A stretch of DNA of 37,911 nt, taken from positions 1 through 37,911 of IMG/VR virus record IMGVR_UViG_3300020192_000032; one strand, given 5' to 3'. This DNA comes from a virus. Below the pieces are notes generated by a model, which searched no databases, was not told the origin of the DNA, and saw only the letters and a list, made by a program, of their open reading frames with translations. Both the position numbers and the translations under genes were made by a program. Position 1 is the first letter of the stretch; each line of letters opens with the position of its first letter. Shown here piece after piece: positions 2,285-31,399 of the stretch.

Positions 2285-2287
2285 GTT

Positions 2288-10934: not shown

Positions 10935-12248
10935 TTAGAAATCGAAGTCGTCATCGTCCGAGTCATCGTCTTCGTCGGAGTCCGTGGCCAGTGGCTTCTT
11001 CGGCTTAACGGTCGTAGAGGAAGGCTTCGTGGTTGGTTTCTTTCCACTTCCTTTCTTCTTCGGTGAAACGTCCTCCTGATCGTCTTCCTGATCGGGTTCT
11101 GGGAGCTTGGTCTTGGTCTTGGCCTTCTTGACTGGCTTCTCTTCCTCTTCTTCCACTTCGAGCGGGGTCAGAGCATCAAGCGGCTTCCAGAATCCTTCTG
11201 GGGTAAGCTTGTTCTTCAGGAAGGCTTTTTCGTCCTTCACCTTCACCACCTTGGCCTTCTTCCTCACCCCTTTGGAAAGGTAGGTAACGACATCCCCGAC
11301 GCTTGGGACTACCTCATCATCATCTTCTGCATAATCGTCGTTGGACTCTTCCTCAGTCTCCTCCTCATCTTCATCAATAGACTCGGACGAGTCAGTGGTG
11401 TGGTCCTCGTCATCATCGTCCCTTTCCTCGGTGTTGATGGTTTCTTCCTCTTCTTCGTCTTCATCTACCGGAGGGTGAATCATCTTCTTTAGTTCGGCGT
11501 ACTTGGTCTTCCGGACCAGATCGTCGAGGCAGATTTCCTTGGCCGTGGTCAGGATATCCTTGGAGACGGCCTTTTCGAGCTTGTGGAACTCGATGTCGGC
11601 CATCTTGACGAAGCTCCCGCTCCCCGCCGACTCACTGGTAGTACCCACTTGGAGGTAATACCCGTTCTGGGGGAAGTAGAACTGACGCATCTCATCCCGC
11701 TTGCTGATTGCAACCCGGCCGAGCTTGGCGTCCAGGTGCTTGCCGAACGCGAAGTGGGAGATTTCGAGCATCTGGATGCCCTTCCCTGTCTCGTCCAGGT
11801 CAAGTACAAGGAACGCCTGTCGTTCCTTGTACTTGACCGACCCGGCCTCGTCCTTCTGTGCTTGGGTCCAGCTATCGTAGCGTGGAGGAAACTTCTGGCA
11901 GATCATGGAGTATTCATCGCACGCCGCACATGTCTCCTTGAGGTTCTTGGCGTTGCAGAACACACAGTCCTTGTTCGGTCCCATCCGTGGGTGGGTGTAG
12001 TACGTTCGCTCGTAGTACATCACTCCAGGTGGGGCGTAGGGGTTGTTCTTGCCAGTCCGGAAGGCCAGGAAGGCCAGCCGGTAGGTCTTATCCTTCTCGT
12101 ACTTGAACAGGGTCACCCCGTCGGGCACCCGGATGGCAAGGCGGTCCCCGCCGGTGGAGTGTTCCGCAAGCCGCCGTTCGGCAGAGTAATAAACATCCCC
12201 TCCGGTCGCCTTTGCCTTACGCTCGTCCCGCTTGTCACGATTTGACAT
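10935..12248 (-). CDS. ssDNA-binding protein, gp32-like, with long acidic C-terminus
   Basis: The product is 437 residues. ATG 12248 has GAGG about 8 bases upstream. The N-terminal ~250 residues form a probable OB-fold domain with a zinc site, CVFCNAKNLKETCAAC (C-x2-C-x8-C-x2-C, about 95-110), as in T4 gp32-type proteins. The next ~185 residues are extremely acidic with Lys-rich patches and contain an SH3/KOW-like island, SVGDVVTYLSKGVRKKAKVV (about 318-337). The protein ends in DSDDDDFDF, the acidic-aromatic tip by which SSBs recruit partners. It is far longer than gp32 because of the acidic insert. It should coat ssDNA at the replication fork and interact with polymerase, helicase and recombinase. 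Confidence 0.8.
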   Translation of the reverse strand: MSNRDKRDERKAKATGGDVYYSAERRLAEHSTGGDRLAIRVPDGVTLFKYEKDKTYRLAFLAFRTGKNNPYAPPGVMYYERTYYTHPRMGPNKDCVFCNAKNLKETCAACDEYSMICQKFPPRYDSWTQAQKDEAGSVKYKERQAFLVLDLDETGKGIQMLEISHFAFGKHLDAKLGRVAISKRDEMRQFYFPQNGYYLQVGTTSESAGSGSFVKMADIEFHKLEKAVSKDILTTAKEICLDDLVRKTKYAELKKMIHPPVDEDEEEEETINTEERDDDDEDHTTDSSESIDEDEEETEEESNDDYAEDDDEVVPSVGDVVTYLSKGVRKKAKVVKVKDEKAFLKNKLTPEGFWKPLDALTPLEVEEEEEKPVKKAKTKTKLPEPDQEDDQEDVSPKKKGSGKKPTTKPSSTTVKPKKPLATDSDEDDDSDDDDFDF

Positions 12249-12953: not shown

Positions 12954-13907
12954 TTACTTCTTAGATTTAGACTTGTGCGTTGTAACCTCATAACAGTTTG
13001 CCACCAACCCGGCTTTCCCACAGTCGTAGTAATGGTCCCGAAACACTTCCAGTATGTAGGCAGCTAGTGGAACCAATGGACTGTTCCCCAACGCGACTGC
13101 GGTGAAGTATCCTAGGATCATCCGCCGTAGTTTCTCTGGTTCTTCTTCCACCCCCTTTAGGATTTTAGCCACGTCCACCCACTTGGACCGTGGGCTACAC
13201 AACTCCCGGCACAACCTAATGGACTCGACCTCCGAGTCGGCCCTGGAAAGGAAATCCAGCCTAGCATCCTGGCCCACCACCCCGGCGATCTGGTCCAGTA
13301 ACTTCAGGGCATCCCGCCCGCTGCCGGAAGCAACCTCCGCGATCTTTGTGGCCACGACCGCCTCAACTACAAACTCCTCGCTCGCTGCCACTTCCGTGAC
13401 CAGCCCGACCAAATCCTTGTGGGGAATTGGCTTCAGGACGACCCTGGTGCATCTGGACTGAATGGCTTTCAGTAGGTGATGTGGTTCCGACGAGCATAGG
13501 AAAAAGTACACGCCGGTCGGGGGTTCCTCAATAGTCTTGAGCATGGCAGTCTGGGCGTCCCCACCCTGCCGCTTGGACAACTGGTGGGCCTCGTCGAACA
13601 CCCACACCCTGGAAGTCGAGTCCGGCTCAAACGTTCCTTGAGAACACTTGAGTTGAATCTCCCGGATGTGGTCGATGCCTCGGGACGAGGCAGCATTGAC
13701 CTCGACCAAGTCCGACCCGGTGGCCCCCACCAATCCGGCCATGATCCTGGCCGCTGTGGTCTTGCCCGTCCCAGGTGGACCCTCGAACAGAAGGGCGTGT
13801 GGGACTGCCTTCCTTTTCACGAACTGTTGAAGCATCTTCACGGCGGAAGGTTGACCGACGATTTCCTTTAGAGTCGTCGGCCGGTACTTGCGTTGGAACT
13901 CGTGCAT
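12954..13907 (-). CDS. Clamp loader AAA+ ATPase (RFC/gp44/DnaX-like)
   Basis: The product is 317 residues. ATG 13907 has AGGAAG about 7 bases upstream, so it is preferred over a start 63 bases upstream inside the reductase gene. The start HEFQRKYRPTTLKEIVGQ is the typical clamp-loader beginning. Walker A is EGPPGTGKTTAAR (about 42-54), Walker B VFDEAHQLSK (about 99-108), sensor 1 lies at FFLCSSEP, and the SRC motif with arginine finger is QSRCTRVV. A sensor 2 region is at GSGRDALKLL. No small subunit (gp62-like) is visible, so this may form a homo-oligomer or use an unrecognised partner. It should load the DnaN-like clamp encoded at 22242-23363. Confidence 0.9.
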   Translation of the reverse strand: MHEFQRKYRPTTLKEIVGQPSAVKMLQQFVKRKAVPHALLFEGPPGTGKTTAARIMAGLVGATGSDLVEVNAASSRGIDHIREIQLKCSQGTFEPDSTSRVWVFDEAHQLSKRQGGDAQTAMLKTIEEPPTGVYFFLCSSEPHHLLKAIQSRCTRVVLKPIPHKDLVGLVTEVAASEEFVVEAVVATKIAEVASGSGRDALKLLDQIAGVVGQDARLDFLSRADSEVESIRLCRELCSPRSKWVDVAKILKGVEEEPEKLRRMILGYFTAVALGNSPLVPLAAYILEVFRDHYYDCGKAGLVANCYEVTTHKSKSKK

Positions 13908-13932
13908 GAAAAACTTCCTGATTGTATGGTGA

Positions 13933-16158
13933 CTATTGACACGACCCTCCGACACATGCCATCGTGGCACTCGCCGCCGTTTGGTCCTCGTCCTCGTACC
14001 GGGTCAGCTTGGCCCAATTGATGGTCGGGAAATTCTTCACCATCTCGACATACTGCAACTCGGTCAATTCCTCGTTTGGGGCGTAAGAGTAAATTCCGTT
14101 GTCTTTGGGCAAAAAGGAAATCCCGTTGATCTTTGAGAAGTTCCGATACACCCATGCCCCCACGTCCAACCACTCGTGGTCGTCCACGTAGATGGTACAA
14201 GACACGTTATGTTCCGTGTAGTTCTCCTTCCACTCCATCCAGTTCTCCAACTGCTGGATGGCATTATGGTCGTTACGGGTCGTTGTCCCGGCCGGGGCAC
14301 ATTTCGGGAATCCAAACACGGCCAACTCGCCCGGTCGCTCCGGGGCGTCGGCCGTCGGAACTCCTGATTCCCGCAAGAACTTGGCGATAGGGGTGTCCTT
14401 TGGCTCCCTAACCCAACGGACCTGCTTGGCGGCGTACCTGTCTGATACCCCGGACGCACAGTCGAAGAACACAGACGAATCCCCTCCCGGCTTGACAGTC
14501 GTATTCGCGGCCGACAGACTAACCCCCCACCGCTCGGACAACATGATGTCAACCTTATGGACTTCTTCTTTGAAATCACGAAGAAGTTGTGCCCTTCCTG
14601 GTGCCCCGAACCGTAGGTGAGGACAATCGGCGTGGCCGGTCACATCCACACCCAGGAGCCGTTCCTCCTCACAGTTCTTCCTCCAGTCGTTGCGAATGTA
14701 GTTGAATCTGGTGGCCATTGATTGGATCTTACCGAAGTATGCAGCGGTCCTCACTTTCCTTTTTAAACTCTCCGGGGTATCCCACGACCGAGCCACGGCA
14801 ATACTGAGGTTACAAAATTCAAAGGGCCGTAGGATGATCTCGCCACACGGATTACACCCGAATTTCCACGGCAGGCGTCGGGCCGGTTTGGTGGCATTCG
14901 CTGCCGTCCGGTTGAAAATCCCCCTTTCCCCCGACTTGGATCGGATCAAGGACGCCCATTCCTCCACGAACACCTCGACCGGGGGTCGATCCTCGTACTC
15001 GTAGACTGCGGAGTTGTTAGACATTGTACGGTGGACACTGTGGGCGTACCAGTTACCGCTTTTGGCGTTCCTCATCAAGAGACTCGTCTGGTCGGACAAA
15101 GAAATCTCAGCGGCCCGTCGGACACCCCCAACTTGGACGATGGTCCCAATCTTGCACGACATATCGTGTACGTCGATATCTTCCAAGAACTTTCCCTGCC
15201 GAGATTTAAACAGCGATCTGGAGAAGTCGAGCAGTTCGACCAAAGGATCAGGACCACTAGAACGCCCGCCTTTGGTTCTGAGGCGGGCGTTATTCTTCCG
15301 GACCTTAGACACGTCCACTTTTGTGTCCCATCCGTCCCAAAGCAGGTTCAGGTGACGATGGAAAGTGTCACACCAATCCTCGGTCGTGTCCTCAACCACC
15401 AGGGTCTCGGACTTTCCGTTCTGTCGTTTGATTCGTGGAAGTTGTGAGACGTACTCGTCCTCACAAGAGAAACCCATTCCGGTTCCTTGCATGAGGATGT
15501 ACAACAACTCTGCGAATGCGAACGGGTCGGACATCGGGGCGTAGGCACAGTTGTAGGCTCCGACGTTGCACCGATCCAGTGCCGGCCCAGCCATCTGTAC
15601 TACCCGCATGGCAGGTGACGCTTCCAGCGTATACATGGAGGTCTGGAGTCCCGTCTTCTCCTCATTAGTTAAGAGTACCCCAGGGAGAGTAAATAGCCAC
15701 GGGGTGATCCGCTCGTACACGGCCTCTTTCCATGTTTCCCGTCGGCCGTCGGTTTCCCTCCATCTGGCGAATTTGGACATGAACTGGTAAATCTGGAGGT
15801 CGGTTGGGAAGTGCGTTTGCATTTCCACAAAACGGTCCTGAACTTCCTGTGAAACTGGAAGTAGGCACCTTGCCCTGTTTTTCTCCTCGCGATAGTTCTG
15901 GTAGTGTTCCGCTTGGGCAAACAAACCGGCCGTCCAGAGTTGCTGTATGACCAGACGTTGAACGTCCTCCACATCGGGAATGGTAATATTTTTGGCTTTC
16001 AGGGAATTGATCACCCCCCTGACGATTGTTTCTGTCCATAAAACGACCCGATCCGTAAAGTCGGTGGACTTAAAGCACAGGCCCAACGCTTTCCGGATTT
16101 TGTCGGCGTCGAACGTGACGACCCGACCGTCCCTCTTCTTGCATGACAGTTCGGACAA
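13933..16158 (-). CDS. nrdJ: Class II (adenosylcobalamin-dependent) ribonucleotide reductase, monomeric type
   Basis: The product is 741 residues from a TTG at 16158 with a strong AAGGAG 7 bases upstream. Residues 1-95 are an ATP-cone-like region (KKRDGRVVTFDADKIRKAL). The catalytic barrel follows: NCAYAPMSDP near 205-215, GTGMGFS about 228-234, GGRSSGPDPL about 308-317, FGCNPCGEI (about 446-454, with active-site Cys and Glu) and PGGDSSVFFDCASG (about 563-576). The C-terminus CVGGSCQ supplies the mobile cysteine pair that regenerates the enzyme. Length and layout fit the single-chain Lactobacillus-type triphosphate reductase. It makes dNTPs without oxygen, provided the host supplies B12. With Dcd, ThyX and DUF3310 genes it gives the phage its own dNTP supply. 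Confidence 0.88.
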   Translation of the reverse strand: MSELSCKKRDGRVVTFDADKIRKALGLCFKSTDFTDRVVLWTETIVRGVINSLKAKNITIPDVEDVQRLVIQQLWTAGLFAQAEHYQNYREEKNRARCLLPVSQEVQDRFVEMQTHFPTDLQIYQFMSKFARWRETDGRRETWKEAVYERITPWLFTLPGVLLTNEEKTGLQTSMYTLEASPAMRVVQMAGPALDRCNVGAYNCAYAPMSDPFAFAELLYILMQGTGMGFSCEDEYVSQLPRIKRQNGKSETLVVEDTTEDWCDTFHRHLNLLWDGWDTKVDVSKVRKNNARLRTKGGRSSGPDPLVELLDFSRSLFKSRQGKFLEDIDVHDMSCKIGTIVQVGGVRRAAEISLSDQTSLLMRNAKSGNWYAHSVHRTMSNNSAVYEYEDRPPVEVFVEEWASLIRSKSGERGIFNRTAANATKPARRLPWKFGCNPCGEIILRPFEFCNLSIAVARSWDTPESLKRKVRTAAYFGKIQSMATRFNYIRNDWRKNCEEERLLGVDVTGHADCPHLRFGAPGRAQLLRDFKEEVHKVDIMLSERWGVSLSAANTTVKPGGDSSVFFDCASGVSDRYAAKQVRWVREPKDTPIAKFLRESGVPTADAPERPGELAVFGFPKCAPAGTTTRNDHNAIQQLENWMEWKENYTEHNVSCTIYVDDHEWLDVGAWVYRNFSKINGISFLPKDNGIYSYAPNEELTELQYVEMVKNFPTINWAKLTRYEDEDQTAASATMACVGGSCQ

Positions 16159-16320: not shown

Positions 16321-16791
16321 TTAAATCACGTTCTTAACTCGCACAACGTGTAACCGTTGTGGCGGGTTCAATTTCAAGAACTCCTCGATCATGTTCTTCG
16401 TACCAGGACTCTTACCATCCCAAAAACAAATACACCTTCCTTTCACTTGGGCGGCGTGTGTCGCCATCTCTCGGTTCCGCTTCGGCCCGGCATTTTTACC
16501 ATTTTTGTCCCATGCTGCGTGGAAAACCATTTTCAAGAGCCAGTTTTTGGCGGCATAGTCATTGGCGTAGGAATCAGCTCCTCGCCAAATCCATTGTCCA
16601 TTACGTTCAGTTTTGTGACCTTCCGATCCGACGCAGATTAGAACTGGGTCCAGCCAGTACAGATAGTCGTCCATGACCCTGATGAACTTCTTATCTCCTT
16701 CCCAATCTCTTGATCCACAGACGATCACATGGTTCGACTTATCGACTGGAGGGGCTTGTTGAGCCTTCCACGGGTAAGGATGAGTCTTCAT
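16321..16791 (-). CDS. DUF2493 / SLOG-family nucleotide-binding-like protein
   Basis: The product is 156 residues. ATG 16791 overlaps the polymerase stop (ATGA) with GGGGAG about 8 bases upstream. The sequence shows HVIVCGSRDWEGDKKFI (about 20-36), then GADSYANDYAAKNW near 72-85 and CICFWDGKSPGTKNMIEEF near 121-139. G-S-R-x-W with GADxxA and a WDGxSxGTxxM motif is the DUF2493 (YspA-like SLOG) pattern. SLOG proteins bind nucleotide-derived ligands and are often linked to signalling or defence, so a role in counter-defence or nucleotide sensing is possible. It sits between the polymerase and the reductase genes, which would fit nucleotide metabolism. The biochemical role is not known from sequence. 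Confidence 0.75.
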   Translation of the reverse strand: MKTHPYPWKAQQAPPVDKSNHVIVCGSRDWEGDKKFIRVMDDYLYWLDPVLICVGSEGHKTERNGQWIWRGADSYANDYAAKNWLLKMVFHAAWDKNGKNAGPKRNREMATHAAQVKGRCICFWDGKSPGTKNMIEEFLKLNPPQRLHVVRVKNVI

Positions 16792-18215
16792 GCCTTTGCT
16801 CCCCAAATTCCACCTTTTTCCAACCACTGCTCACACTTGGTCCAATCTCCATTTACTGGTCCCACATCTGATTCGGTGTCCAGTGGGATATTGATCCATG
16901 ACCATGCTTTTGGGAGGTCTTTCGTCATGATCTTGTATGTTTCATGTAAGAAGTCTTGCAACTCGGAAGGGTGTACGCTAAACTGACCGGCGTCGTGGAT
17001 CTCTCCGATGATCCTAGTTTTCATTTTATACTTCCTGATCCATTTGTCTATTTGGATCAGACACCACAAGAGACAATGGAAGCTACTACCTTGGATGGGG
17101 TAGTTGGCTACGTCCCGCCGACCAAACACCCCATTAACGGCAAACCCTGATAGCATCCGAAAACCACCGGCCTTGAGATAATCCTCGTAAAAAGATTTCT
17201 TCCAAGATGTGTAAATGGAGAATCTCTTGAACCACATCTTCCGTTCGACTTCACGAAGATGAGACTCAAAAGTCCCAGGTCTGGGATCACTCCCCTGCAC
17301 ACATTCCCCACGTTCCATAATCCCCTTGGAAGCCAAATGCTCGAACATGGTTTTTTCACCGACCATAAACTTTCTCTGCCGTATCGACTTCCATATGAAC
17401 TTGCAGCAGTTCACATAATTGGACCCATAAAATTGGGGAAAGACAAATTGGTTCTTAGCTGAGTCCCTGGCGGTCTTCTTGTCTACTTCCTCTTTCTTGA
17501 GGAAGAACATTTCCATAGCCGTGTCACCGTGCATATCCGTTCCAGGGTCCATGATGTACTTAATCATGACTGGATCTTTATGGTAAGGACATCCAATTCG
17601 TACTTCCAGTTGACTGAAGTCTACCTCTACAAAGTGATGTCCATAATTCGGTAGGAAAAGAGGGCGAATACGTTTTGCCATGTCCGGGTTACGCTTCGGC
17701 ACGTTCTGGAAGTTGATCGCCCGACACCCAGATCGGAAGGTTGAAATGGTAGCGAGGTTGTAGGAGGGGTGGACCCACCAGTACCCGTCCCGCTCGACCA
17801 TTTCCCGTTCGACCCCATCCAAATAAGTGTTGATGGACTTCTTTAGATTCTGGGCGATCAGAAAATTCTGGACGTATGGCTCCTCAATCTCATCCAGTTG
17901 GTCCTTACCGGCAGCAATCTTGCCGGTCGCCGTGTGACCTCGGACTTCGTATGCCAGGTAATCCTTACCGAATACTATCTCTACTAATTGGTCATGGGAG
18001 CCAGTGTTAGCCTTATCTCCGAACCTTTTCTGGATCATCTCGTACACGGGATCGGACCTCATCTTAACTTCCAGATCGTCAAGTTGGACCTTAGTCCGCT
18101 CCTTCGTACCTAATAGGTATTTGAGGTTCACCCTCACTCCGTTGTGTTCCATCCTCGATAGAACCATCTGACCCTCGTGGAAGAGTCTCATCGCGTCCAC
18201 GGTCACTGGGATCAT
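16788..18215 (-). CDS. Family A DNA polymerase core (thumb, palm, fingers; no exonuclease domain)
   Basis: The product is 475 residues. The start is most likely ATG 18215; upstream residues in the frame look like shadow of the DUF1653-like gene. An inter-domain helix (VLSRMEHNGVRVN, about 19-31) matches the PolI region before the thumb. Motif A is VDFSQLEVRIG, motif B RDSAKNQFVFPQFYG (Arg and Lys kept, with an altered spacing before FYG), motif C GEIHDAGQFSV (HD kept, the usual Glu replaced by Ala). Both catalytic Asp residues are present. No 3'-5' or 5'-3' exonuclease domain is attached; these are encoded at 19611-20849 and 8600-9478. The pieces may assemble into one working polymerase. The ribosome site is unclear and the 125-base overlap with the previous gene is unusual. 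Confidence 0.88.
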   Translation of the reverse strand: MIPVTVDAMRLFHEGQMVLSRMEHNGVRVNLKYLLGTKERTKVQLDDLEVKMRSDPVYEMIQKRFGDKANTGSHDQLVEIVFGKDYLAYEVRGHTATGKIAAGKDQLDEIEEPYVQNFLIAQNLKKSINTYLDGVEREMVERDGYWWVHPSYNLATISTFRSGCRAINFQNVPKRNPDMAKRIRPLFLPNYGHHFVEVDFSQLEVRIGCPYHKDPVMIKYIMDPGTDMHGDTAMEMFFLKKEEVDKKTARDSAKNQFVFPQFYGSNYVNCCKFIWKSIRQRKFMVGEKTMFEHLASKGIMERGECVQGSDPRPGTFESHLREVERKMWFKRFSIYTSWKKSFYEDYLKAGGFRMLSGFAVNGVFGRRDVANYPIQGSSFHCLLWCLIQIDKWIRKYKMKTRIIGEIHDAGQFSVHPSELQDFLHETYKIMTKDLPKAWSWINIPLDTESDVGPVNGDWTKCEQWLEKGGIWGAKA

Positions 18216-18423
18216 AATTCGACTCGCTGTTGACTTCCAGAACGTAGCGGCCGTCGATGAATTCCAAAACCGGAAGCACCCAACAAATACCGGAACTAAT
18301 CCCCTCGTACACCACCGCCCATACACAACCCTTTTCGATATTCGCCAAGCCCCTGACGACGTACATGGTACCATTCCTGTGCCGCCACACCGAACCGACC
18401 AAGATTTTAGGAGTGTCTGTCAC
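18091..18423 (-). CDS. DUF1653-like small protein
   Basis: The product is 110 residues. GTG 18423 overlaps the ThyX stop (GTGA) with AGGAG about 8 bases upstream. The first ~65 residues (GSVWRHRNGTMYVVRGLAN, then CWVLPVLEFIDGRYVLE) form an SH3-like beta unit similar to DUF1653 proteins. The rest is polar and overlaps the polymerase start by 125 bases, so it may be read-through of an open frame with little constraint. DUF1653 has no settled function. Here it stands between thymidylate synthase and the polymerase core. Confidence 0.65.
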   Translation of the reverse strand: MTDTPKILVGSVWRHRNGTMYVVRGLANIEKGCVWAVVYEGISSGICWVLPVLEFIDGRYVLEVNSESNYDPSDRGRDETLPRGSDGSIEDGTQRSEGEPQIPIRYEGAD

Positions 18424-19331
18424 TTTGGAGTCTCCTCATATGGATTCTTCTTCATACTATATATCTCCAATAACCCTTCATGATCCCGCGTCTTGTGGCC
18501 GTGAAGCAACAGAGGCCATCGGGACATGATGGCGTGATATACTTGATTGAACACCAATCGAATCTCCCATTCAGCGTGTTTAGCTGTCCGCAGCATCAGG
18601 ATATGTCGAATGGCATTCACGTTGCAAGTGAACCCGATCTCATTGGATTGACCATTAGGAGCGATGCGGCGGATGGCACTTGTGATCTTTTTTCGCCGCT
18701 CGAAGTCGAACGTGTCGTCCGGCACCCACTTGGATCTGGTGAATCCTCCAAACTCGTTCTCGTCCGTGGTCAGGCATCTATTCGGCGGGGCGTCGGGGTC
18801 CGACGCCGGGGGTTTGCGGAGGCCGAGTTTGCATTCGGCTAGGTAAACCGCGATCTCGGTCTTCTCCAGATGTTTCTTGAAAATGTCCCCCACTGGCTCC
18901 AGGATCGGGTCCAACACCAGGTCGATATTATCCAAGCGACAATACCTTCCGCTTGTTTGGGAAAACGCAGTTCCTACACGGTGTCGAACTAACTCGTGGG
19001 TAAACACTCGGGAGCAGTTGGTAATCAAGAAGTTAATGGACATATGCTCGAACACACTTCCATGTCCTGTGTCGAAGCACCCTTCAATGTTCTTCCGAAC
19101 CGACCTAGTCTTTTGGACGTTGGCGTTCTTGCCGACGACCAAGGACTTGTAGCACAATTTGGCAAACAGGGAGATAATAATCTCCCCTGTCGTCAACTCT
19201 GTGTCCTTGGCTTCGTTGATGTCGTCAATAAAGTCCGTTTGGTCAGTTTCTTTCAGGTATTGAATGATGGCGTCCAAATCGCCATGAGTGTATCCGATGA
19301 TATGAACAACTGGAGTTACGAAGTTTGCCAT
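18420..19331 (-). CDS. thyX: Flavin-dependent thymidylate synthase
   Basis: The product is 303 residues from ATG 19331 with GAGG about 8 bases upstream. The ThyX signature appears as ELVRHRVGTAFSQTSGRYC (about 113-131), matching the RHR-x7-S motif for FAD and dUMP binding. Other ThyX segments include GHGSVFEHMSINF (about 89-101) and RHILMLRTAKHAEWEIR (about 244-260), the latter holding the conserved Arg and His residues near the C-terminus. It makes dTMP from dUMP with methylene-folate and FAD. A dCTP deaminase gene in the same block (33342-34049) could supply dUMP via dUTP, so the two together favour a phage-run thymidylate route. Confidence 0.92.
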   Translation of the reverse strand: MANFVTPVVHIIGYTHGDLDAIIQYLKETDQTDFIDDINEAKDTELTTGEIIISLFAKLCYKSLVVGKNANVQKTRSVRKNIEGCFDTGHGSVFEHMSINFLITNCSRVFTHELVRHRVGTAFSQTSGRYCRLDNIDLVLDPILEPVGDIFKKHLEKTEIAVYLAECKLGLRKPPASDPDAPPNRCLTTDENEFGGFTRSKWVPDDTFDFERRKKITSAIRRIAPNGQSNEIGFTCNVNAIRHILMLRTAKHAEWEIRLVFNQVYHAIMSRWPLLLHGHKTRDHEGLLEIYSMKKNPYEETPK

Positions 19332-19341
19332 AACTTTTTCC

Positions 19342-19626
19342 TCAAGTTTTTAATTTTGGAAACCGAAAAATCTTGTACTTGTGTAGTGCGTCTCGGATCT
19401 GGTTAGAACTTGTCCCGAATACAGTAGCAATGTTCGGGATCGACACTCGTTCGGTAGTCCTCATCCACCGCAGAGTGGAAATCATTTTTCTACTCCATTT
19501 CAATATTATTCGGTTTGGCTTTTTATCGAACCGGCGTCGTATCTCTGTTCTCCGATAGCATCGGTAACACAATCCCCTTCCGCCCTTTGGATAATCTGTT
19601 AGTCCACAATTCAAACATTCCCACAC
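19342..19626 (-). CDS. Zinc-ribbon plus helix-turn-helix small DNA-binding protein
   Basis: The product is 94 residues from GTG 19626 with GAGGGGG upstream, overlapping the end of the previous gene by 16 bases. The N-terminus has CLNCGLTDYPKGGRGLCYRC, a CxxC...CxxC zinc ribbon. The C-terminal half has a helix-turn-helix-like stretch (VSIPNIATVFGTSSNQIRD) and a basic end. Such proteins are common phage regulators or homing-nuclease remnants; here the lack of a nuclease motif favours a simple DNA-binding factor. It lies between the two polymerase-related genes. Confidence 0.65.
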   Translation of the reverse strand: MWECLNCGLTDYPKGGRGLCYRCYRRTEIRRRFDKKPNRIILKWSRKMISTLRWMRTTERVSIPNIATVFGTSSNQIRDALHKYKIFRFPKLKT

Positions 19627-20849
19627 GATACCCCCTCTTTCAGCCGCCTCATTTGGAGGTTGGCGATTAGGAATTCGTACAAGGAATCGTAGGCATTGTA
19701 CCTTAGGAGTGATTGTAAATCTACCTCGTCGATTCGGTTCTTGGCGTTACCCTGCTTCTCTCCTCTATCCTTTTCACTCTCCAGATACGGACCGACGACA
19801 ATATCCCACTCTGGGACACCAAGGTGAACAAAGGCTTGGAATTTAACTGAGGCAATGTGTCGCACTTTGGTATTGTTATCTAGGATGTGGGCAGCAAGAA
19901 CAGTGTCCCACAACCATCCCTTGATATCAATCCCGAGAATACGACGGGTCCATCTATCCTCGAACTTGGCGTTGGCTGCTATCTTCTTGACTTTGGGATT
20001 TCTCAGGATATTTTTTGTGGCCTCGATTGCCAAGCCGTGCCACGGATAGGCAACGGAGACTTCACCGTCGGATATTGCACAGGAAACAATCTTGGCGTGA
20101 GGACCATCCGGCTTGAGAGTCGTAGTCTCGTAGTCGAATGAGATCATTCGACTATCCTGAAAATTCTCTGATATAAACTTAGCGGCGAGTTTGGGACTCG
20201 TGTATACTCGAATACGGGAAGAGTAGTCAGGAACTTTTGTGTATGGGCGTCCCCTGAGTTTGGAAATGGCCTCGACGTGTTGCGAGAACAGGACTTTTGA
20301 CACCTCGTTCATCCCATCTGTCTTGGCTCGGTGGGGATGAAAGGTGGGACATACCCAGGTGTTCAACGCGACGCTCGGGATGAGATATCCAGCCAGCCGA
20401 TCTTCCGCCCCGGTACTGGACGTGGATAGGTCGCCGACCAGGGACTTGTGGGCCTCCGGCCCGAGAAGGATAATTACCTCCGGTTTAAGTTTGTCGATGG
20501 TATTTAGAAGATTGGCCCGACAGTATTCAACTGCATTGGAGGTCGGAGGACCATTGCAAATGGTAGCGGACGTGGCCCAGCAGTCCTCCCGTAATTCAAT
20601 CCCGTATTTACGGAAGACTTCAGATACATCCCGACCGTACTGGCCAGCGAGATGGCAGTTAAAATTTTCTTCATCTCCACGAACTCGATCCGTAACTACC
20701 AGAATTTTCCTCTTTCCCGAACCAGACGGGGGCATCATCGGACGACGACATTGAACCTTCAGACCACACTTTCCACAGTCAGGGGTTCGTGAACTTTCCT
20801 TCTTCTCGCCAGTCAGGAGGGTAAGGGGCATGAACGGCTCACGGCTCAT
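19611..20849 (-). CDS. UDG-like domain fused to 3'-5' exonuclease (detached N-terminal part of a polymerase)
   Basis: The product is 412 residues from ATG 20849 (ATGA overlap with a tiny gene). Residues about 25-200 resemble a family 4-type uracil-DNA glycosylase fold: CGKCGLKVQCRRP, then KILVVTDRVRGDEENF, VIILLGPEAHKSLVG and TFHPHRA. The usual catalytic residues are not evident, so this part may bind rather than cut. Residues about 230-400 are a DnaQ/PolI-type proofreading exonuclease: MISFDYETTTLK (Exo I), ANAKFEDRWTRR (Exo II) and YNAYDSLYEFL (Exo III), with all catalytic Asp and Glu present. In SPO1-like phages UDG, exonuclease and polymerase are one chain; here the polymerase is a separate gene at 16788-18215. 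Confidence 0.82.
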   Translation of the reverse strand: MSREPFMPLTLLTGEKKESSRTPDCGKCGLKVQCRRPMMPPSGSGKRKILVVTDRVRGDEENFNCHLAGQYGRDVSEVFRKYGIELREDCWATSATICNGPPTSNAVEYCRANLLNTIDKLKPEVIILLGPEAHKSLVGDLSTSSTGAEDRLAGYLIPSVALNTWVCPTFHPHRAKTDGMNEVSKVLFSQHVEAISKLRGRPYTKVPDYSSRIRVYTSPKLAAKFISENFQDSRMISFDYETTTLKPDGPHAKIVSCAISDGEVSVAYPWHGLAIEATKNILRNPKVKKIAANAKFEDRWTRRILGIDIKGWLWDTVLAAHILDNNTKVRHIASVKFQAFVHLGVPEWDIVVGPYLESEKDRGEKQGNAKNRIDEVDLQSLLRYNAYDSLYEFLIANLQMRRLKEGVSCGNV

Positions 20850-20944
20850 CTCTTCCTCGACTTAGAGGGTGATCCGATCAACATGAACGCGGTGAAAATC
20901 ACCATAGAGATGGTCACGGCGATTATCAGGTCCAAGTTACTCAC
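20846..20944 (-). CDS. Tiny single-pass membrane protein (32 residues)
   Basis: GTG 20944 overlaps the stop of the upstream gene (GTGA) with AAAGGAG about 8 bases upstream, and its TGA overlaps the next ATG (ATGA). The product is a short polar start, one membrane helix (LIIAVTISMVIFTAFMLIG), and a basic tail, SPSKSRKR. This is too short for many gene callers, but the double coupling and good ribosome site support it. Function unknown. Confidence 0.65.
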   Translation of the reverse strand: MSNLDLIIAVTISMVIFTAFMLIGSPSKSRKR

Positions 20945-22107
20945 TTCTTGTACTCCTTTGGGATGACTCCTTCTCTCCACTTATCCTGGTCCTTGCCAGG
21001 ATGAAGATTCTTACGCCAGCACTTGTGGATGAACTTCTTGTCGGCCTCGGATACGATGGTTACCCCAGACCGCTCCTGAATCTCCAGCAACCGCCCGAAC
21101 AAATCTTTCCTCACTGCCACCCGCATCGGCCCGTATTGGATTTTTTGTTTCTTATCGTTCCAACACCACATCCGATTGTGCTTCAGTCTGGCTTCGCCCC
21201 ACAGAACGTAGATAGCCCGGAGAGCAGAAATACTTGGATCTTCCCTTTCCATAGCTTTAACGACTTTATCTTGCATCAATGCAGGACATCCAATACATCC
21301 GAATCTCATAAAGTGAACCTTGCGTGGAAAAATACCCAATCCTTCTTCACCTACTTTGGTATGGTAGACGGTAAGAAGGCGTTTGGACACCGTCCGCAAA
21401 TCCTCCATCATCGGGTTGGTCTTCTCGGCCTCGTCGGTGCCGGACAGCCACTTGACAACGTGGACATCATGCCACGTTATAATTGGACCAAACACTTCTT
21501 CTGATCCCTTCTTGAGTTGTGGGAGGCCACATTCCCCTCCGGCACTACACCCGGAAGATTGGGATTCTCGGTCCTTATCTTGTCGGGCTTTAAGTTTTAC
21601 ATCACGGTGCCTGGATTCTCCCCACCTGACTCCAGTTAGAGATACTAATCCTTTGTCTGTCATCTCCTTCTTGTAAATGTCCATAGGGCCGATTTTAGTC
21701 TGGCGAGTACACCACCGCATTCCCTTGAATGCGGGGTTGATAGGAGTTTGGCCCAGACCGAAAATGGAGTTGTACAGTTTCTTCGATTGGTGAGGTCGGA
21801 CAATAGTGCAGTCCCATCCCACTGATCGGAGGGTTGAAATCATCATCTCGACAACTTCGGTCAGGAAAGGGTATTCAGCCTCCGTGTCACTCTGAATAAG
21901 ACGGGGTTGTGGAGCTTTTATCAGCCCGGTGCGACGGAGCCATTCTATCCATGTCACCAGACTGGTGCTGTCCTTACCTCCCGAGTAAGAGGCAATCCAA
22001 GGTTTGTTGTTTAATACGTTTAGGGTATGTCGATCTGGCAGGTAAAAAGGATTCTGTCGAATCGGTTTGTATTCCTCAAAGACTGGAAGAGGGACTTTCT
22101 CGGACAC
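20941..22107 (-). CDS. PAPS-reductase / DndC-like sulfur-transfer-type protein
   Basis: The product is 388 residues. GTG 22107 has AGGAG about 8 bases upstream. The N-terminal PP-loop is ASYSGGKDSTSLVTWIEWLR (about 39-58). Further family features are LIQSDTEAEYP (about 70-80), RWCTRQTKIGPMDIY (about 131-145) and LTGVRWGESRHRD (about 157-169). C-terminal cysteines (GCIGCPAL and KCWRKNLHPGKD) could hold an Fe-S cluster as in DndC or CysH relatives. PP-loop enzymes activate a target with ATP before sulfur transfer or reduction. In this replication cluster, DNA or nucleotide thio-modification is an attractive idea, but no DndB, DndD or DndE partners are visible, and phage PAPS-reductase-like proteins are widespread with unknown roles. 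Confidence 0.75.
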   Translation of the reverse strand: MSEKVPLPVFEEYKPIRQNPFYLPDRHTLNVLNNKPWIASYSGGKDSTSLVTWIEWLRRTGLIKAPQPRLIQSDTEAEYPFLTEVVEMMISTLRSVGWDCTIVRPHQSKKLYNSIFGLGQTPINPAFKGMRWCTRQTKIGPMDIYKKEMTDKGLVSLTGVRWGESRHRDVKLKARQDKDRESQSSGCSAGGECGLPQLKKGSEEVFGPIITWHDVHVVKWLSGTDEAEKTNPMMEDLRTVSKRLLTVYHTKVGEEGLGIFPRKVHFMRFGCIGCPALMQDKVVKAMEREDPSISALRAIYVLWGEARLKHNRMWCWNDKKQKIQYGPMRVAVRKDLFGRLLEIQERSGVTIVSEADKKFIHKCWRKNLHPGKDQDKWREGVIPKEYKK

Positions 22108-22138: not shown

Positions 22139-22252
22139 TTACAATGACACTATAATAATCGACAGGATGGTTATTAAAACCATGAACATCATGGTTATGA
22201 ATTCTTGTTTGGTCGGTCTGCATTCATCAGGATATTCATCGTCAGGAAACAT
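22139..22252 (-). CDS. Tiny single-pass membrane protein (37 residues)
   Basis: ATG 22252 has GAGGAAAC about 9 bases upstream and lies 11 bases inside the end of the clamp gene. The product has an acidic polar start (MFPDDEYPDECRPTKQE) and one membrane helix (MMFMVLITILSIIIVSL) running to the C-terminus. It is the third such tiny membrane ORF in the replication block. Function unknown. Confidence 0.6.
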   Translation of the reverse strand: MFPDDEYPDECRPTKQEFITMMFMVLITILSIIIVSL

Positions 22253-23363
22253 CTTCAGTTTCCTCAGGTTCAGGTAAGGATTCCTGAACCTTGGGTTTCT
22301 TTTCGGTTACAGGTGTCATGGACTCAGGATTGCCAAGAGTCGTAACGTATTGCCATTTCCCGCCCTCCACCTTCAACCGCTTGGGAGTTAGAATACAATC
22401 CGAGTGCTTGGTGGCAATGTGGGCCAAGATTTCGGGCGGGATGGTGAACGCCATTGGCAGTCCTGTATAATGGATATCATACAGTTTGGAGTAGTCCCCA
22501 CTGGTTCCAATCCCGGTCACCATCATCTTACCCATCTTCTCCTTTCCGGTCGGGGGCCGGATGTTCAGAATGAGTAAGTTACTGTCTGGGTTCTCCTTCG
22601 AGAAGATACTGGCCACGGACACGGCTTGAGCCAATCCTTTCGGCAGAGCGGCTGGCTCTCCCGACACCTTCAAATTCGCCTTCAAGTCTGGAAAGGGATC
22701 GGTGTGTCGCTTGACGGACATTGTTACCCCGGCCGGGTTTCGGAAGTGTACCCACCGATCCGTCTCGCAGATTTTCGTCACGTCCAGAGGTACGACGTGC
22801 TTGAGCGAGTCCTTCTTAACCAGGACAGGTACAGCCAGACCTGTGTCCACATTATATCGGGCAAGTTGGAAACCGTCAGTTGCCTCCACCCACTTCGGGG
22901 TCATATGGACGCACATACCGATAAACTGACTGGTATCTTTACCTGCTACTGCGGATACGATCCCAACTGCATCGTTGAACTCTTCGTGAACAGGACGCCA
23001 CTGTTGTTTAGTTGGGCGTTCCAGACCTGATAGTGGTAGGGTCATCTCTCCATCCATCCTGAGTCTAACCCTGTCTGTCTTGCCCCCACGAATGATTAGT
23101 TGAGATGCCTCCACGCTCAACTCCAACGTCTCAAACTCCATCTTCTTGAGAAGTTCCAGAAACGCCTTGGCTTTTACTGCTCCCACGAAGTCCTTTGGTA
23201 AGCCGGACTTAACTCGACAGGCCACATCCGTGTTATAGGTGATTACCATTCCACCACTGAACACAAATGACCCGGACTGACTTACTACCTCCCCTGGAGA
23301 TATACCTGGCTGTACGGCTTCCAGTAGGTGAAGGAAGCCCCCTCTGTCGATTGTTGCCTTCAT
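22242..23363 (-). CDS. DnaN-like sliding clamp (beta clamp)
   Basis: The product is 373 residues from ATG 23363. Length matches the bacterial beta clamp, about 370. The recognisable part is the middle and third domain: VEATDGFQLARYNVD (about 169-183), which is the beta-clamp 'ATDG-x-RL' segment, and a late PMAFTIPPEILAHIA region. The last 30 residues are a Pro/Glu-rich tail that host clamps lack. It should encircle DNA and hold the polymerase, loaded by the AAA+ protein at 12954-13907. That loader is closer to RFC/gp44 in style while this clamp is bacterial in style; mixed origins are common in phages. Sequence similarity is clear only in parts, so the family call carries some doubt. Confidence 0.75.
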   Translation of the reverse strand: MKATIDRGGFLHLLEAVQPGISPGEVVSQSGSFVFSGGMVITYNTDVACRVKSGLPKDFVGAVKAKAFLELLKKMEFETLELSVEASQLIIRGGKTDRVRLRMDGEMTLPLSGLERPTKQQWRPVHEEFNDAVGIVSAVAGKDTSQFIGMCVHMTPKWVEATDGFQLARYNVDTGLAVPVLVKKDSLKHVVPLDVTKICETDRWVHFRNPAGVTMSVKRHTDPFPDLKANLKVSGEPAALPKGLAQAVSVASIFSKENPDSNLLILNIRPPTGKEKMGKMMVTGIGTSGDYSKLYDIHYTGLPMAFTIPPEILAHIATKHSDCILTPKRLKVEGGKWQYVTTLGNPESMTPVTEKKPKVQESLPEPEETEDVS

Positions 23364-24531: not shown

Positions 24532-24553
24532 TTAAATCCAGTTATATAGTCTG

Positions 24554-24625
24554 TGGGTCTGGTCGGAGTCGAACCGACTTCCTAGACGTTATGAGCATCC
24601 AGCTCTACCGTTGAGCTTCAGACCC
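24554..24625 (-). tRNA. tRNA with CAT anticodon (Met or lysidine-type Ile)
   Basis: The minus strand folds as a cloverleaf of 72 bases: acceptor GGGTCTG/CAGACCC (7 bp), D arm GCTC-AACGGTA-GAGC, anticodon arm GGATG-CTCATAA-CGTCT (5 bp with two G-T pairs) with anticodon CAT, variable AGGAA, T arm GTCGG-TTCGACT-CCGAC, discriminator A. CCA is not encoded. A CAT anticodon is either Met, or Ile when the C is changed to lysidine; the sequence alone does not settle which. Confidence 0.9.
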
Positions 24626-26519: not shown

Positions 26520-27947
26520 TTAAAACGTGCTGAAGACACACGGGTTGGCCACGGCGAGACAACCCGCCGTAAACAGGCACTTCCGCTTGTCGTACTGCCC
26601 GGTCCTGGCAACGATTGGGTTGAGGCGGTAGACCCCTTCCTCCTTCTCCGGGTCGGTTTGGTTAATCCCAATGCTGAACGTAACATGGGACCGCTTTCGC
26701 TTGTCTTCGGCCGCATGTTCCATGTCGATGGTCTTGGCGTCGTAACTTCCTCGGTTGGTTTGGGTGGCGGTTAGGACTAGACTGTTGGAGGACATCGAAA
26801 GGGATCGGAGCATGGCCCAGGTATGATTGATCTGGTCCCGAGTGTCGGCGGTTCCGTGCATAGGGGCAATGATATCGGCGTAGTCCACTACGATCACGTC
26901 CGGCACCCAAAAGTATTTACTCCTTTGTCGAGCGAGAATGGTTTGAATGCCAGCAACGGACAAAGTCTTGGTTGGGTGGCAGGATACCTTGAACTTATCA
27001 ATTCCGTATTTGGCCGTCTGCTTGGCGAAACTGATCTTGGCCTCGGACGAAGTCATCCTTACCTTTACCAGTCGATCTTCCAACTGCACTTCACACTTCT
27101 CCCTCCCGCCGGCCGGCTCCAACATCAGGGGGTATCGGTATCGGCCCTTAGGATCACTCGCCATCTCTTCTGGGTCCACTGGCTTGCCGGTACTCCTGGC
27201 GGCGAGTCGCATAATCACGTCTTCTTTGGAAAGGTCACCCATCTCGAAGTATGCCACCCGCCTTCCTTGTTCCAGTGCCCTCCATGCCACATCCATCAGC
27301 CAGAAACTTTTGCCCTTTTTTTCCATTGCTTCAAAAGAGACGAATGCCCGGCGGCGGAGTCGGTTCCCGAAAAATACCCCCGCTGCCCCAGGGTAGACCA
27401 CCAACGGCTCGAACGTGGACTCGAAGGCGGATGTGATAGCAGCCGTATCGGTGAAGATGTCCGTCATATCCTCCTGTGTCATCTCCACCCTGTCTACTTT
27501 TTGGAGTACCGCCACTGCCTCATCGAGTTTTCCGTTTGCAGCCAAATCCTTGGCCTCGGCCGCTGCGGCGGCGACCCGGACACCAGTGAACAGGTCGGTA
27601 GCCACCTGGATGACGTAGTCCGACTGAATGGTCTTTCTCTCTCGTCGGATGTACTCTTCAGACAGGCTGGATAGAAGTCCTTGTATAGCCTGGGACTCTT
27701 CATCCGGACGATTCTTGGCCTCGGCCCACCGCCGGTGGTAGGACGCGATCTGGGCACCGGGTGCTTTCCCGTATTTGTTGAAATGCCTGATGCACCACCC
27801 GCCGATTCGGTCCAGATGGGCGGAACCGAATAATCCATCGGGGGTCCACTTCTGGGCTACGGCAGCCAGGACACGGGACGATACGACCATGCCAGTGATA
27901 ACCAGCCGCCCGTCGTTTCCACTTTTGGAGTAGTTCGTCACCCGCAT
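26520..27947 (-). CDS. DnaB-like replicative helicase
   Basis: The product is 475 residues from ATG 27947, overlapping the upstream gene's end by 10 bases. The N-terminal ~170 residues are helical. The RecA-like core has a Walker A AMEKKGKSFW (A-x4-GKS, about 203-212), Walker B DVIVVDYADII (about 341-351), and later VLTATQTNRGS (about 380-390), the strand and Gln sensor seen in DnaB and gp4 helicases. The first position of the P-loop is Ala instead of the common Gly, still allowed by the consensus. It should unwind DNA at the fork as a hexamer. The gene follows a candidate initiator/loader gene and precedes a strong terminator. Confidence 0.85.
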   Translation of the reverse strand: MRVTNYSKSGNDGRLVITGMVVSSRVLAAVAQKWTPDGLFGSAHLDRIGGWCIRHFNKYGKAPGAQIASYHRRWAEAKNRPDEESQAIQGLLSSLSEEYIRRERKTIQSDYVIQVATDLFTGVRVAAAAAEAKDLAANGKLDEAVAVLQKVDRVEMTQEDMTDIFTDTAAITSAFESTFEPLVVYPGAAGVFFGNRLRRRAFVSFEAMEKKGKSFWLMDVAWRALEQGRRVAYFEMGDLSKEDVIMRLAARSTGKPVDPEEMASDPKGRYRYPLMLEPAGGREKCEVQLEDRLVKVRMTSSEAKISFAKQTAKYGIDKFKVSCHPTKTLSVAGIQTILARQRSKYFWVPDVIVVDYADIIAPMHGTADTRDQINHTWAMLRSLSMSSNSLVLTATQTNRGSYDAKTIDMEHAAEDKRKRSHVTFSIGINQTDPEKEEGVYRLNPIVARTGQYDKRKCLFTAGCLAVANPCVFSTF

Positions 27948-29620: not shown

Positions 29621-30112
29621 CTATAAGATTTTCACCCACGACGCTTCGGGGTAGATTTTCCGAATTTTTTCCTTAGTCTTCTCCGGAAGAAGACTCCAGG
29701 CCAGAGCTGCTGCGTCCTCGGATCCTCGTCTGGTCAGAAAATCCTTCGACAAGCACACCATGATCTTGGACGATTTTCCTTCCACTTCCCGAGTCTTCTG
29801 TTCGCTGTAGGTGTGTTTGGACTCGATAAGGTCAAACCATTCTTGCGGGATGGCTCCGATTAAATTCTCCTCGTAATTTCTTGTTAGTTCCGTTTGGCAC
29901 CACCACGACCAACACCCGAGCGGGTTGTTGATGTTGCATCCGGCGCACATGGTAGGATTGTGCTCTGGAAGAAGTTTCATCCCACCTATCACCATATACC
30001 CTTCTGCCCTGGCGTCGCCCATCTCCTCTAGCCAATCCGATAACACCATCCTGGTGAGACAGTCGTCTGGGTTCTCGTCCAGAATTTTGTGAAATTCTTC
30101 TTCCTGATTCAC
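29621..30112 (-). CDS. TIGR02996-type domain protein
   Basis: The product is 163 residues. GTG 30112 overlaps the primase stop (GTGA) with AGGAG about 10 bases upstream. Residues 5-42 read EEFHKILDENPDDCLTRMVL, then SDWLEEMGDARAEGYM, the TIGR02996 pattern (an E/F-x2-I helix, N/HPDD, L-x-YADWLEE-x-GD). I know this domain as abundant in Gemmata-like planctomycetes and some myxobacteria. A cysteine group (MCAGCNINNPLGCWSWWC, about 55-72) may bind metal. The rest is helical. Function is unknown; its value is as a pointer to the host group, probably acquired from it. Confidence 0.75.
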   Translation of the reverse strand: MNQEEEFHKILDENPDDCLTRMVLSDWLEEMGDARAEGYMVIGGMKLLPEHNPTMCAGCNINNPLGCWSWWCQTELTRNYEENLIGAIPQEWFDLIESKHTYSEQKTREVEGKSSKIMVCLSKDFLTRRGSEDAAALAWSLLPEKTKEKIRKIYPEASWVKIL

Positions 30113-30981
30113 TTTAGGAATCTCCTTTTGAGTTTTTCGATCTCAGACTTTGGACTCCTGCTGGCGTCTTTTCCAGACAGGCACACGTTGAATGTCTCGC
30201 CTGGAAATGGAGCCAATTCCAGGCACACTTCCTCGGCTCTTCGCTGGGCTTTTTCCTCGTTGTCGAAACAAACCACCCGGACGGGGTAGGCAGCCAACGC
30301 GACGACCTGGAGGGCTGTAATCCCAAGGCCACACGTTGCCACCCCGCCCGGTCCTATAGCCCAGGCGTCCAGTGGCCCCTCGCAGCACACGACGGCATGG
30401 GAGCATAAGTCTCCGCCGTATAGGATGCTCTTGATCGGAACCCTCTCGGACTCGGCGGGGGCAGAGTCGTATCTCTTTTCCATCCCTACACCTCTGGTCG
30501 TCCACGACACCACCTCGCCCCCAAGTAAAGCTGGAATGAATAAGGACCAGGCGTACCTCCCTCCCGTCTGTCCGATGCCTTGAACTTTCCATACCTCCTC
30601 TATTTTGGTGGGGGTGAATCCTCTAGAACGTAAAAATTGCCGGTGAGCCGATTCAAGCTGGCCAATACCCGGCGGCAGAATCGTTTTTAATGCCCCTAGC
30701 GTGCGTTCTACGGGCCGTTCGGCCCGTAGCGTGCCCAATACCTCAGATACCCGATGAAAGGGCACCTTAGTGGCAATTTTCAGGGTAGAAAACAGACGGT
30801 GTTTGCCACACTTCCAGCAGGTGCAGGCCAGACTGGAAGTGTTTATCCCCATCCCATAGTTGTTGGTCCCTCCTCCGCAGTGGGGGCAGATTATCCCAAC
30901 CCAACCGTGGTTGACGTGTTTGGACTCTCCTGGGGATTTGTATTTGATCCCGAGTTCCTCCAGAACTCGGAGGAGGTTCAT
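30109..30981 (-). CDS. DnaG-like primase
   Basis: The product is 290 residues. ATG 30981 overlaps the upstream stop (ATGA) with AGGAGG upstream, so it is preferred over a start 273 bases up. Residues 1-60 hold a CHC2-like zinc finger (CPHCGGG...CTCWKCG). A TOPRIM domain follows with VVCCEGPLDAWAIG (about 201-214, catalytic Glu) and VVCFDNEEKAQRR (about 238-250, the D-x-E/D-like acidic pair). It should synthesise primers for lagging-strand and possibly leading-strand start. It is short compared with bacterial DnaG, lacking a clear helicase-binding C-terminal domain, so contact with the DnaB-like helicase may be through another protein. Family call is good; activity is inferred. Confidence 0.82.
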   Translation of the reverse strand: MNLLRVLEELGIKYKSPGESKHVNHGWVGIICPHCGGGTNNYGMGINTSSLACTCWKCGKHRLFSTLKIATKVPFHRVSEVLGTLRAERPVERTLGALKTILPPGIGQLESAHRQFLRSRGFTPTKIEEVWKVQGIGQTGGRYAWSLFIPALLGGEVVSWTTRGVGMEKRYDSAPAESERVPIKSILYGGDLCSHAVVCCEGPLDAWAIGPGGVATCGLGITALQVVALAAYPVRVVCFDNEEKAQRRAEEVCLELAPFPGETFNVCLSGKDASRSPKSEIEKLKRRFLK

Positions 30982-31220
30982 GACATCTCCCGGATGATTC
31001 TCTCGAGTTTTTGGATTGTCTTCCTGAAGTAATTTGGCCCCCACGCCCCGCCGGGCTGAACGTGTTGCCACTCCACTTCGATGATGTCCTGCATCCACCC
31101 GTACCCCACTTCGCCGGCCTTGGCTTTCCTCACGGCCTCGACGAACTGGAGTTCTTCCGGAGTGACTTGGAAGCTCGGGTGCTGGGACATCCACTTCTGG
31201 AGGTATTCTTCGACGGTCAT
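30978..31220 (-). CDS. Small hypothetical protein upstream of primase
   Basis: The product is 80 residues. ATG 31220 overlaps the previous stop (ATGA) and its own stop overlaps the primase start. It is helical with an amphipathic start (VEEYLQKWMSQHP) and a Trp/Gln-rich middle (YGWMQDIIEVEWQHVQPGG). The end is a charged helix (FRKTIQKLERIIREMS). The tight coupling suggests a primase partner, but no motif supports a specific function. Confidence 0.6.
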   Translation of the reverse strand: MTVEEYLQKWMSQHPSFQVTPEELQFVEAVRKAKAGEVGYGWMQDIIEVEWQHVQPGGAWGPNYFRKTIQKLERIIREMS

Positions 31221-31399
31221 TTCCTCTTCTCCGTGATTCTGGGGTTTTCCACATAGGCGGACATTAGCTTCTGGATGACCTTGCTCATGTCCTCACCACG
31301 ACGGGCACACGTTGCCTTGAACAAGGACTTGACCGGGGTCGGGATGCCACGGACGTACAGAACGCCTTTGGTGGGGCGGGTTGGGACTCGGATTGTCAT
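31217..31399 (-). CDS. Small ribbon-helix-helix-like protein
   Basis: The product is 60 residues. ATG 31399 shares a base with the helicase stop (TAATG). A beta strand (KGVLYVRGIP) is followed by two helices (TPVKSLFKATCARRGEDM, then SKVIQKLMSAYVENP), the layout of ribbon-helix-helix DNA-binding proteins such as Arc or CopG. The last residues are basic. It could be a repressor acting on phage or host promoters, with the target unknown. Confidence 0.6.
   Translation of the reverse strand: MTIRVPTRPTKGVLYVRGIPTPVKSLFKATCARRGEDMSKVIQKLMSAYVENPRITEKRK

Follow-up and report, generated by a model that had tools for sequence, protein, structure and literature searches.

Organization of the locus

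The stretch of DNA analysed here, referred to as the window, comprises 37,911 bases from an uncultured virus (record IMGVR_UViG_3300020192_000032) and encodes a family A DNA polymerase as two separate proteins. The first, of 412 amino acids (aa; positions 19611-20849), combines a uracil-DNA glycosylase (UDG)-like domain with a 3'-5' exonuclease domain and is hereafter called UDG-exo, and the second (16788-18215) is a stand-alone polymerase core of 475 aa comprising thumb, palm and fingers. Both are open reading frames (ORFs) within a replication module encoded on the minus strand, and 1395 nt lie between the UDG-exo stop and the polymerase start. Read 5' to 3' on that strand, the gene order is sliding clamp, PAPS-reductase-like gene, UDG-exo, a zinc/helix-turn-helix (HTH) ORF, ThyX, a small ORF and the polymerase.

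Three ORFs thus lie between the two parts of the enzyme, all on the same strand. The ORF at 19342-19626, which overlaps the UDG-exo stop by 16 nt, had been named a zinc-HTH protein in a first-pass annotation of the window; its CxxC...CxxC pairs and an HTH-like segment can be read from the sequence, but no Pfam or PHROG family match was obtained. The flavin-dependent thymidylate synthase ThyX (18420-19331) was correctly recognised at that stage (PF02511, 2.2e-33), whereas the label 'DUF1653-like' for the small ORF at 18091-18423, the last 125 nt of which overlap the polymerase start, was dropped after zero matches in Pfam or PHROG.

Domain content of the two proteins

UDG-exo matched the Pfam families DNA_pol_A_exo1 (PF01612, 2.1e-9) and UDG (PF03167, 1.8e-6), and its AlphaFold2 model had a predicted local distance difference test (pLDDT) score of 89.3. 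By structure alignment of this model, residues 208-405 superimpose on residues 324-518 of the Klenow fragment (Z 20.9, root mean square deviation 2.8) and residues 25-202 on the family-4 UDG 4zbx (Z 21.5). Sequence motifs and fold matches together place a family-4-UDG/UdgX-like domain at about residues 17-202 (20244-20801) and a DnaQ-fold 3'-5' exonuclease domain at about residues 208-408 (19626-20228). The top Foldseek match was the phiLo polymerase (9qhs), a phage family A enzyme of 1122 residues, with 436 columns aligned, and diDNase and NrnC were further structural matches. Fold and family matches to the Pol I-type DnaQ exonucleases are clear, and UDG-exo is a putative exonuclease of this type.

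The exonuclease motifs had been described as intact, which holds for ExoI (D239/E241) and ExoIII (Y384/D388) but not for ExoII, where the metal-ligand position is occupied by Glu (E297) instead of Asp. Among the relatives surveyed below, which carry the two parts either separately (split) or in one chain (fused), the ExoI D/E and ExoIII D are invariant in all 58 aligned split exonucleases. The ExoII Glu is present in 57 of these 58, the window included, as well as in 23/23 fused sequences of the same clade, and since it is common to both architectures it represents a clade trait rather than decay.

Four cysteines of the window UDG domain (C25, C28, C98 and C110) correspond to those of the iron-sulphur UDGs and are likely ligands of an Fe-S cluster; they are kept in nearly all relatives. 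Catalytic motif 1, on the other hand, is degenerate in the window (TDRVRGDEE versus GEAPGxxED), and motif 2 reads TFHPHR (HPHR versus HPS). Most split relatives retain GEAPGxxED and HPSY or close forms, and a minority are degenerate like the window, in which the UDG domain probably has a structural role or serves as a binding module.

A free C-terminal [LI]PF was observed in 21 of 60 split UDG-exo proteins (three of them copies of one), compared to 3 of 2,916 other ORFs of at least 90 aa from the same loci. The proteins with this tail are those of loci L024, L032, L042, L045, L051, L053, L059, L067, L070, L072, L074, L086, L090, L092, L097, L111, L113, L120 and others; the whole chain of the fused L121 ends in YFDLPF, and the window UDG-exo is without such a tail. 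We considered whether these tails are clamp-binding peptides and rejected this, the similar C-terminal tip of the bacterial single-stranded DNA-binding protein (SSB), DDDIPF, being a better fit (PMC5872125). In one subclade, [LI]PF may serve for docking.

The polymerase protein matched only DNA_pol_A in Pfam (PF00476, 2.7e-40), and no exonuclease domain was found in it by this search. Its model (pLDDT 94.0) aligns over residues 2-462 with Klenow 519-928 (Z 32). The palm Asp residues noted earlier are intact (D199 and D408), and the conserved residues comprise D199/E204 of motif A, R250/K254 of the O-helix and H407/D408 of motif C. The O-helix is unusual and reads KNQFVFPQFYG. Among split polymerases, the motif A D/E is present in 58/58 and the motif C D in 57/58, the remaining one having a gap at this position.

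In the 125 nt shared with the small ORF, GC content at the three codon positions (0.54, 0.32 and 0.72) fits the polymerase frame and not that of the small ORF. At 18215 a TGA in a third frame overlaps the polymerase ATG (ATGA), and the polymerase is without a strong ribosome-binding site, which its neighbour genes have. A one-base slip or translational coupling at the polymerase start is possible.

Position of the cut

Profile searches showed that both proteins match the UDG-exo-pol family phrog_17 ('DNA polymerase', 1445 positions) in tandem; UDG-exo covers positions 479-830 and the polymerase 834-1235, so that almost nothing is missing at the cut. The same was seen with the structural models, which tile the Klenow fragment as 324-518 followed by 519-928 and thus meet at residue 518/519. 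This is a natural domain boundary between exonuclease and thumb, where UDG-exo ends just past the junction helix and the polymerase starts at the next structural element. Except for the ExoII Glu, the catalytic residues are intact in both halves. Pfam domains, phrog_17 coverage and models therefore agree with the first-pass annotation that an exonuclease with a UDG-like N-terminus is separate from a polymerase core, and they show no full exonuclease domain in the polymerase gene.

Rfam searches of the window and of 13 split loci returned no intron, and the window proteins have no additional intein-like sequence where the chain is cut. Inteins were seen in the polymerases of L059, L118, L122 and L091 and, with LAGLIDADG, in the exonuclease of L072, while the polymerase of L120 has an insert with LAGLIDADG; inteins or homing-endonuclease inserts thus affect either half of the split enzyme and also one fused polymerase.

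Conservation of the split in uncultured phages

A scan of IMG/VR seeded with the O-helix motif FVFP[QE]FYG returned at least 119 loci, on which all clade counts given here rest, and the polymerase ORF lengths were bimodal among the loci listed. By profile search, at least 60 loci, the window included, have UDG-exo as an ORF of its own, preceding the polymerase on the same strand, and at least 24 loci of the same clade are fused; in the remaining motif loci the end of the contig or locus cuts the polymerase or hides the exonuclease. Removal of copies left at least 54 non-redundant split loci, whose polymerases share a mean identity of 44% (maximum 69%). In these 54 the exonuclease always precedes the polymerase, and the intact split loci have the same exonuclease end and polymerase start. 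The distance from exonuclease stop to polymerase start ranges from -38 to 3025 nt and is within 60 nt in 26 of 54, and nine split loci show an exact 4-nt overlap, as in translational coupling. Among 14 records with the exonuclease off the fetched locus, eight carry it elsewhere (before the polymerase in the six read as linear), five are short and cut off upstream, and one, L094, has none. The split is thus conserved far beyond the window and is neither a one-off nor an error.

A DNA-level search of the 4-kb region against 50,697 phage records returned zero matches, and IMG/VR scans with single-protein patterns made from the window exonuclease or polymerase, which were too specific, did not find the relatives. 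No cultured clade member appeared among the matches listed from a phage collection, to which the polymerases of the window and L126 and the fused polymerase of L127 were at most about 29% identical.

Evolution of split and fused forms

In SPO1-like phages the domains form one chain, as had been stated in the first-pass annotation (phi18, 925 aa; LysYB1; Goe16; vB_EalM-132), and these and similar fused phages were used to root a tree of the exonuclease and polymerase sequences. A long, fully supported branch sets off the clade containing the window. Within it, the fused forms require five changes in all (six on a polymerase-only tree), and their placement as a single clade was rejected (approximately unbiased test, p = 3.6e-50; groups defined by architecture, not by the tree). 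The fused L014, L030, L114 and L121 are nested within a well-supported split clade, and re-fusion is therefore likely in some lines.

Exonuclease and polymerase distances correlate at 0.78 in split and 0.72 in fused loci, and in split loci both values with the clamp are lower (exonuclease-clamp 0.67, polymerase-clamp 0.65). A correlation of this kind between the halves would be expected of two components of a single machine. The proposal of a split whose role is to uncouple proofreading from synthesis appears less likely, since the halves share a cluster, correlate in their distances as closely as those of fused relatives and have apparently been rejoined in some lines.

Outside the clade, Caudoviricetes sp. 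ctLwi270 (MW202554.1, L150) has a separate UDG-exo of 419 aa and a polymerase of 408 aa divided at the same boundary, annotated as two 'DNA polymerase' genes. Since its polymerase lacks FVFPxFYG and is closest to other branches, its split is probably independent, and two or more origins are probable for the cut at the exonuclease/polymerase boundary. At this locus (1727-4364), the two genes are separated by an NrdR-like zinc-ribbon reading frame.

Clamp linkage, genes between the halves and the wider module

The window encodes a sliding clamp, or DNA polymerase processivity factor (22242-23363, minus strand; phrog_947, 1.7e-18), upstream of UDG-exo, with the PAPS-reductase-like gene (20941-22107, minus strand; PF01507, phrog_12882) between them. 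Of the 38 split loci in which 1.5 kb or more is available for it, 37, the window included, have a clamp upstream of UDG-exo, 31 of them within 400 nt; it is upstream in 17 of 24 fused loci and was found in 40 of 50 whole records. As the clamp precedes nearly all split exonucleases with such room, the conserved unit consists of clamp, proofreader and polymerase. The earlier suggestion that the pieces may assemble on the clamp gains support from these counts.

In contrast, the genes between the halves vary. Split relatives have a C5 methyltransferase, a radical-SAM protein, N6/N4 methyltransferases, a KilA-N protein, MazG or a PAPS-reductase-like protein in the gap, or no gene, and ThyX was recognised there in the window alone among the split loci examined. 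ThyX is thus incidental, and we discarded its linkage as the core of the finding, since other split phages have different or no gap genes; the gap genes, here ThyX, the zinc/HTH ORF and the small ORF, are interchangeable cargo.

Downstream of the polymerase, the window encodes a SLOG-like protein, a ribonucleotide reductase, a clamp loader subunit (12954-13970; phrog_5846, 1.7e-62) and a UvsX-like recombinase, and further upstream in the module lie a DnaB-like replicative helicase (26520-27947; phrog_19, 2.1e-21) and a DNA primase (30109-31254; phrog_47, 4.9e-17), all on the minus strand. A dCTP deaminase (phrog_1663) is encoded in addition to ThyX. A protein at 10935-12248 without a PHROG match has a very acidic C-terminus ending in DDDDFDF, resembling phage SSB tails, and a tRNA-Met(CAT) gene is located at 24553-24625 on the minus strand.

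A probable two-subunit family A replicase

We consider it probable, at roughly 0.68, that the two proteins constitute a two-subunit family A replicase, i.e., a polymerase core and a dedicated proofreading subunit encoded together with its clamp. UDG-exo and the polymerase would bind each other and rebuild a Klenow-like enzyme, in which the polymerase would extend the primer and UDG-exo, docked on it as in Klenow, would remove mispaired 3' ends. A mispaired end would then leave the palm of the polymerase subunit and enter the exonuclease site of its partner, comparable to bacterial Pol III alpha and epsilon, and the phage clamp from the same cluster would hold both on the DNA. A more far-reaching version, that in this large uncultured phage clade UDG-exo is a dedicated, exchangeable proofreader working in trans on the clamp, with an SSB-like [LI]PF docking tail in one subclade, and that the enzyme was split and re-fused more than once in the lineage, is offered as tentative and rather doubtful in its entirety.

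Several points weigh against the two-subunit replicase or restrict it. The AlphaFold2 models are of single chains only, and co-inheritance of neighbouring genes would likewise be expected to yield correlated distances. The sample seeded with FVFP[QE]FYG is not exhaustive and its counts are lower bounds, and since the deep branches of the tree are weak, it is uncertain how often and in which direction the enzyme was split or fused, and the direction of the deepest change is unsettled. Lastly, no exonuclease was found in the 18.6-kb record L094, although the sequence extends 7 kb upstream of its stand-alone polymerase.

The L094 record would suit an alternative in which UDG-exo has become independent and acts in repair or degradation, and in which the phage is replicated by a polymerase free of exonuclease. 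DnaQ-fold exonucleases that stand alone and serve other functions exist, among them the diDNase and NrnC that matched the model, and a UDG domain is compatible with base repair. However, the exonuclease is fixed in order and linked to the polymerase in nearly all records, with the same cut everywhere, fused forms are nested within split clades, and the UDG catalytic motif of the window is itself degraded, and we regard this alternative as unlikely.

Next in order, and improbable as well, both proteins could be tethered separately to the sliding clamp without a direct pairwise complex, proofreading then occurring by exchange on the clamp. The clamp gene directly upstream in most split loci and the distance correlations of both proteins with the clamp would agree with this, but the stronger correlation between exonuclease and polymerase would not, and no recognised clamp-binding peptide was seen at the C-termini of the two window proteins. 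Moreover, one protein ends right past the junction helix and the other opens at the next element, as if the original interface were kept, which speaks against tethering alone.

The three unrelated genes between the window halves, and the diversity of gap genes in relatives, including methyltransferases, MazG and a KilA-N protein, could be taken as signs of a recent break by a mobile cassette of ThyX and its neighbours that left two fragments. This is very improbable, since in 26 of 54 split loci no more than 60 nt separate the halves and the split polymerases are highly diverged, making the split older than the cargo, and each of the two frames has a start of its own and an intact active site. 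Least credible is an error of sequencing or assembly, or restoration of one chain by an intron, an intein or trans-splicing; although phage polymerases often carry introns and inteins, and several relatives have inteins, the split is common to 54 non-redundant loci, no Rfam intron was detected in the window and 13 split loci, and no extra sequence was seen where the window proteins are cut. The breadth and age of the split contradict both this and the cassette.

Comparison with known systems

Family A polymerases that proofread normally combine this activity with synthesis in a single polypeptide. The SPO1-like (Herelleviridae) polymerases of phrog_17 have the same domain order where known (UDG, 3'-5' exonuclease, family A polymerase) but form one chain where the window has two proteins, and the window clade differs from them by the O-helix KNxFVFPxFYG and the ExoII Glu. 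Comparators of the fused UDG-exo-pol type are PaBG gp205 (PMC7412058) and the phiLo structure 9qhs. The Klenow part of E. coli Pol I, though tiled by the two window models, is a single chain without a UDG domain and is not the replicase. Bacterial Pol III alpha-epsilon (DnaE-DnaQ) does pair its polymerase with a sliding clamp and with a DnaQ-fold proofreader that is a subunit of its own; however, it belongs to family C, its polymerase part is not homologous, and epsilon has no UDG domain.

Marine phages of the MEP401 type also have a family A polymerase in two ORFs, but in these the polymerase domain itself is broken and the exonuclease is kept with the N-terminal polymerase part (PMC10580990), whereas the window break is between exonuclease and thumb. 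Poxvirus D4 shows a UDG fold used as a replication accessory and part of the polymerase holoenzyme (PMC10253040, PMC10115419), although in an unrelated polymerase system and without an exonuclease attached to it. Further phage polymerases that lack an exonuclease fall into different groups (PMC7824862, PMC11348598). Both the domains and their fusion in one enzyme are already known, but a literature search with limited coverage of subscription journals found no published description of the cut between UDG-exo and polymerase.

Split genes of this kind may each simply receive the label 'DNA polymerase', which is the case in MW202554.1, or may pass for an exonuclease-deficient polymerase, and the fidelity of such phages may consequently be misjudged. 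The split clade offers a natural system to test whether proofreading requires a covalent link to the polymerase, and it informs on primer-end transfer between subunits and on what drives fission and fusion of replicase genes.

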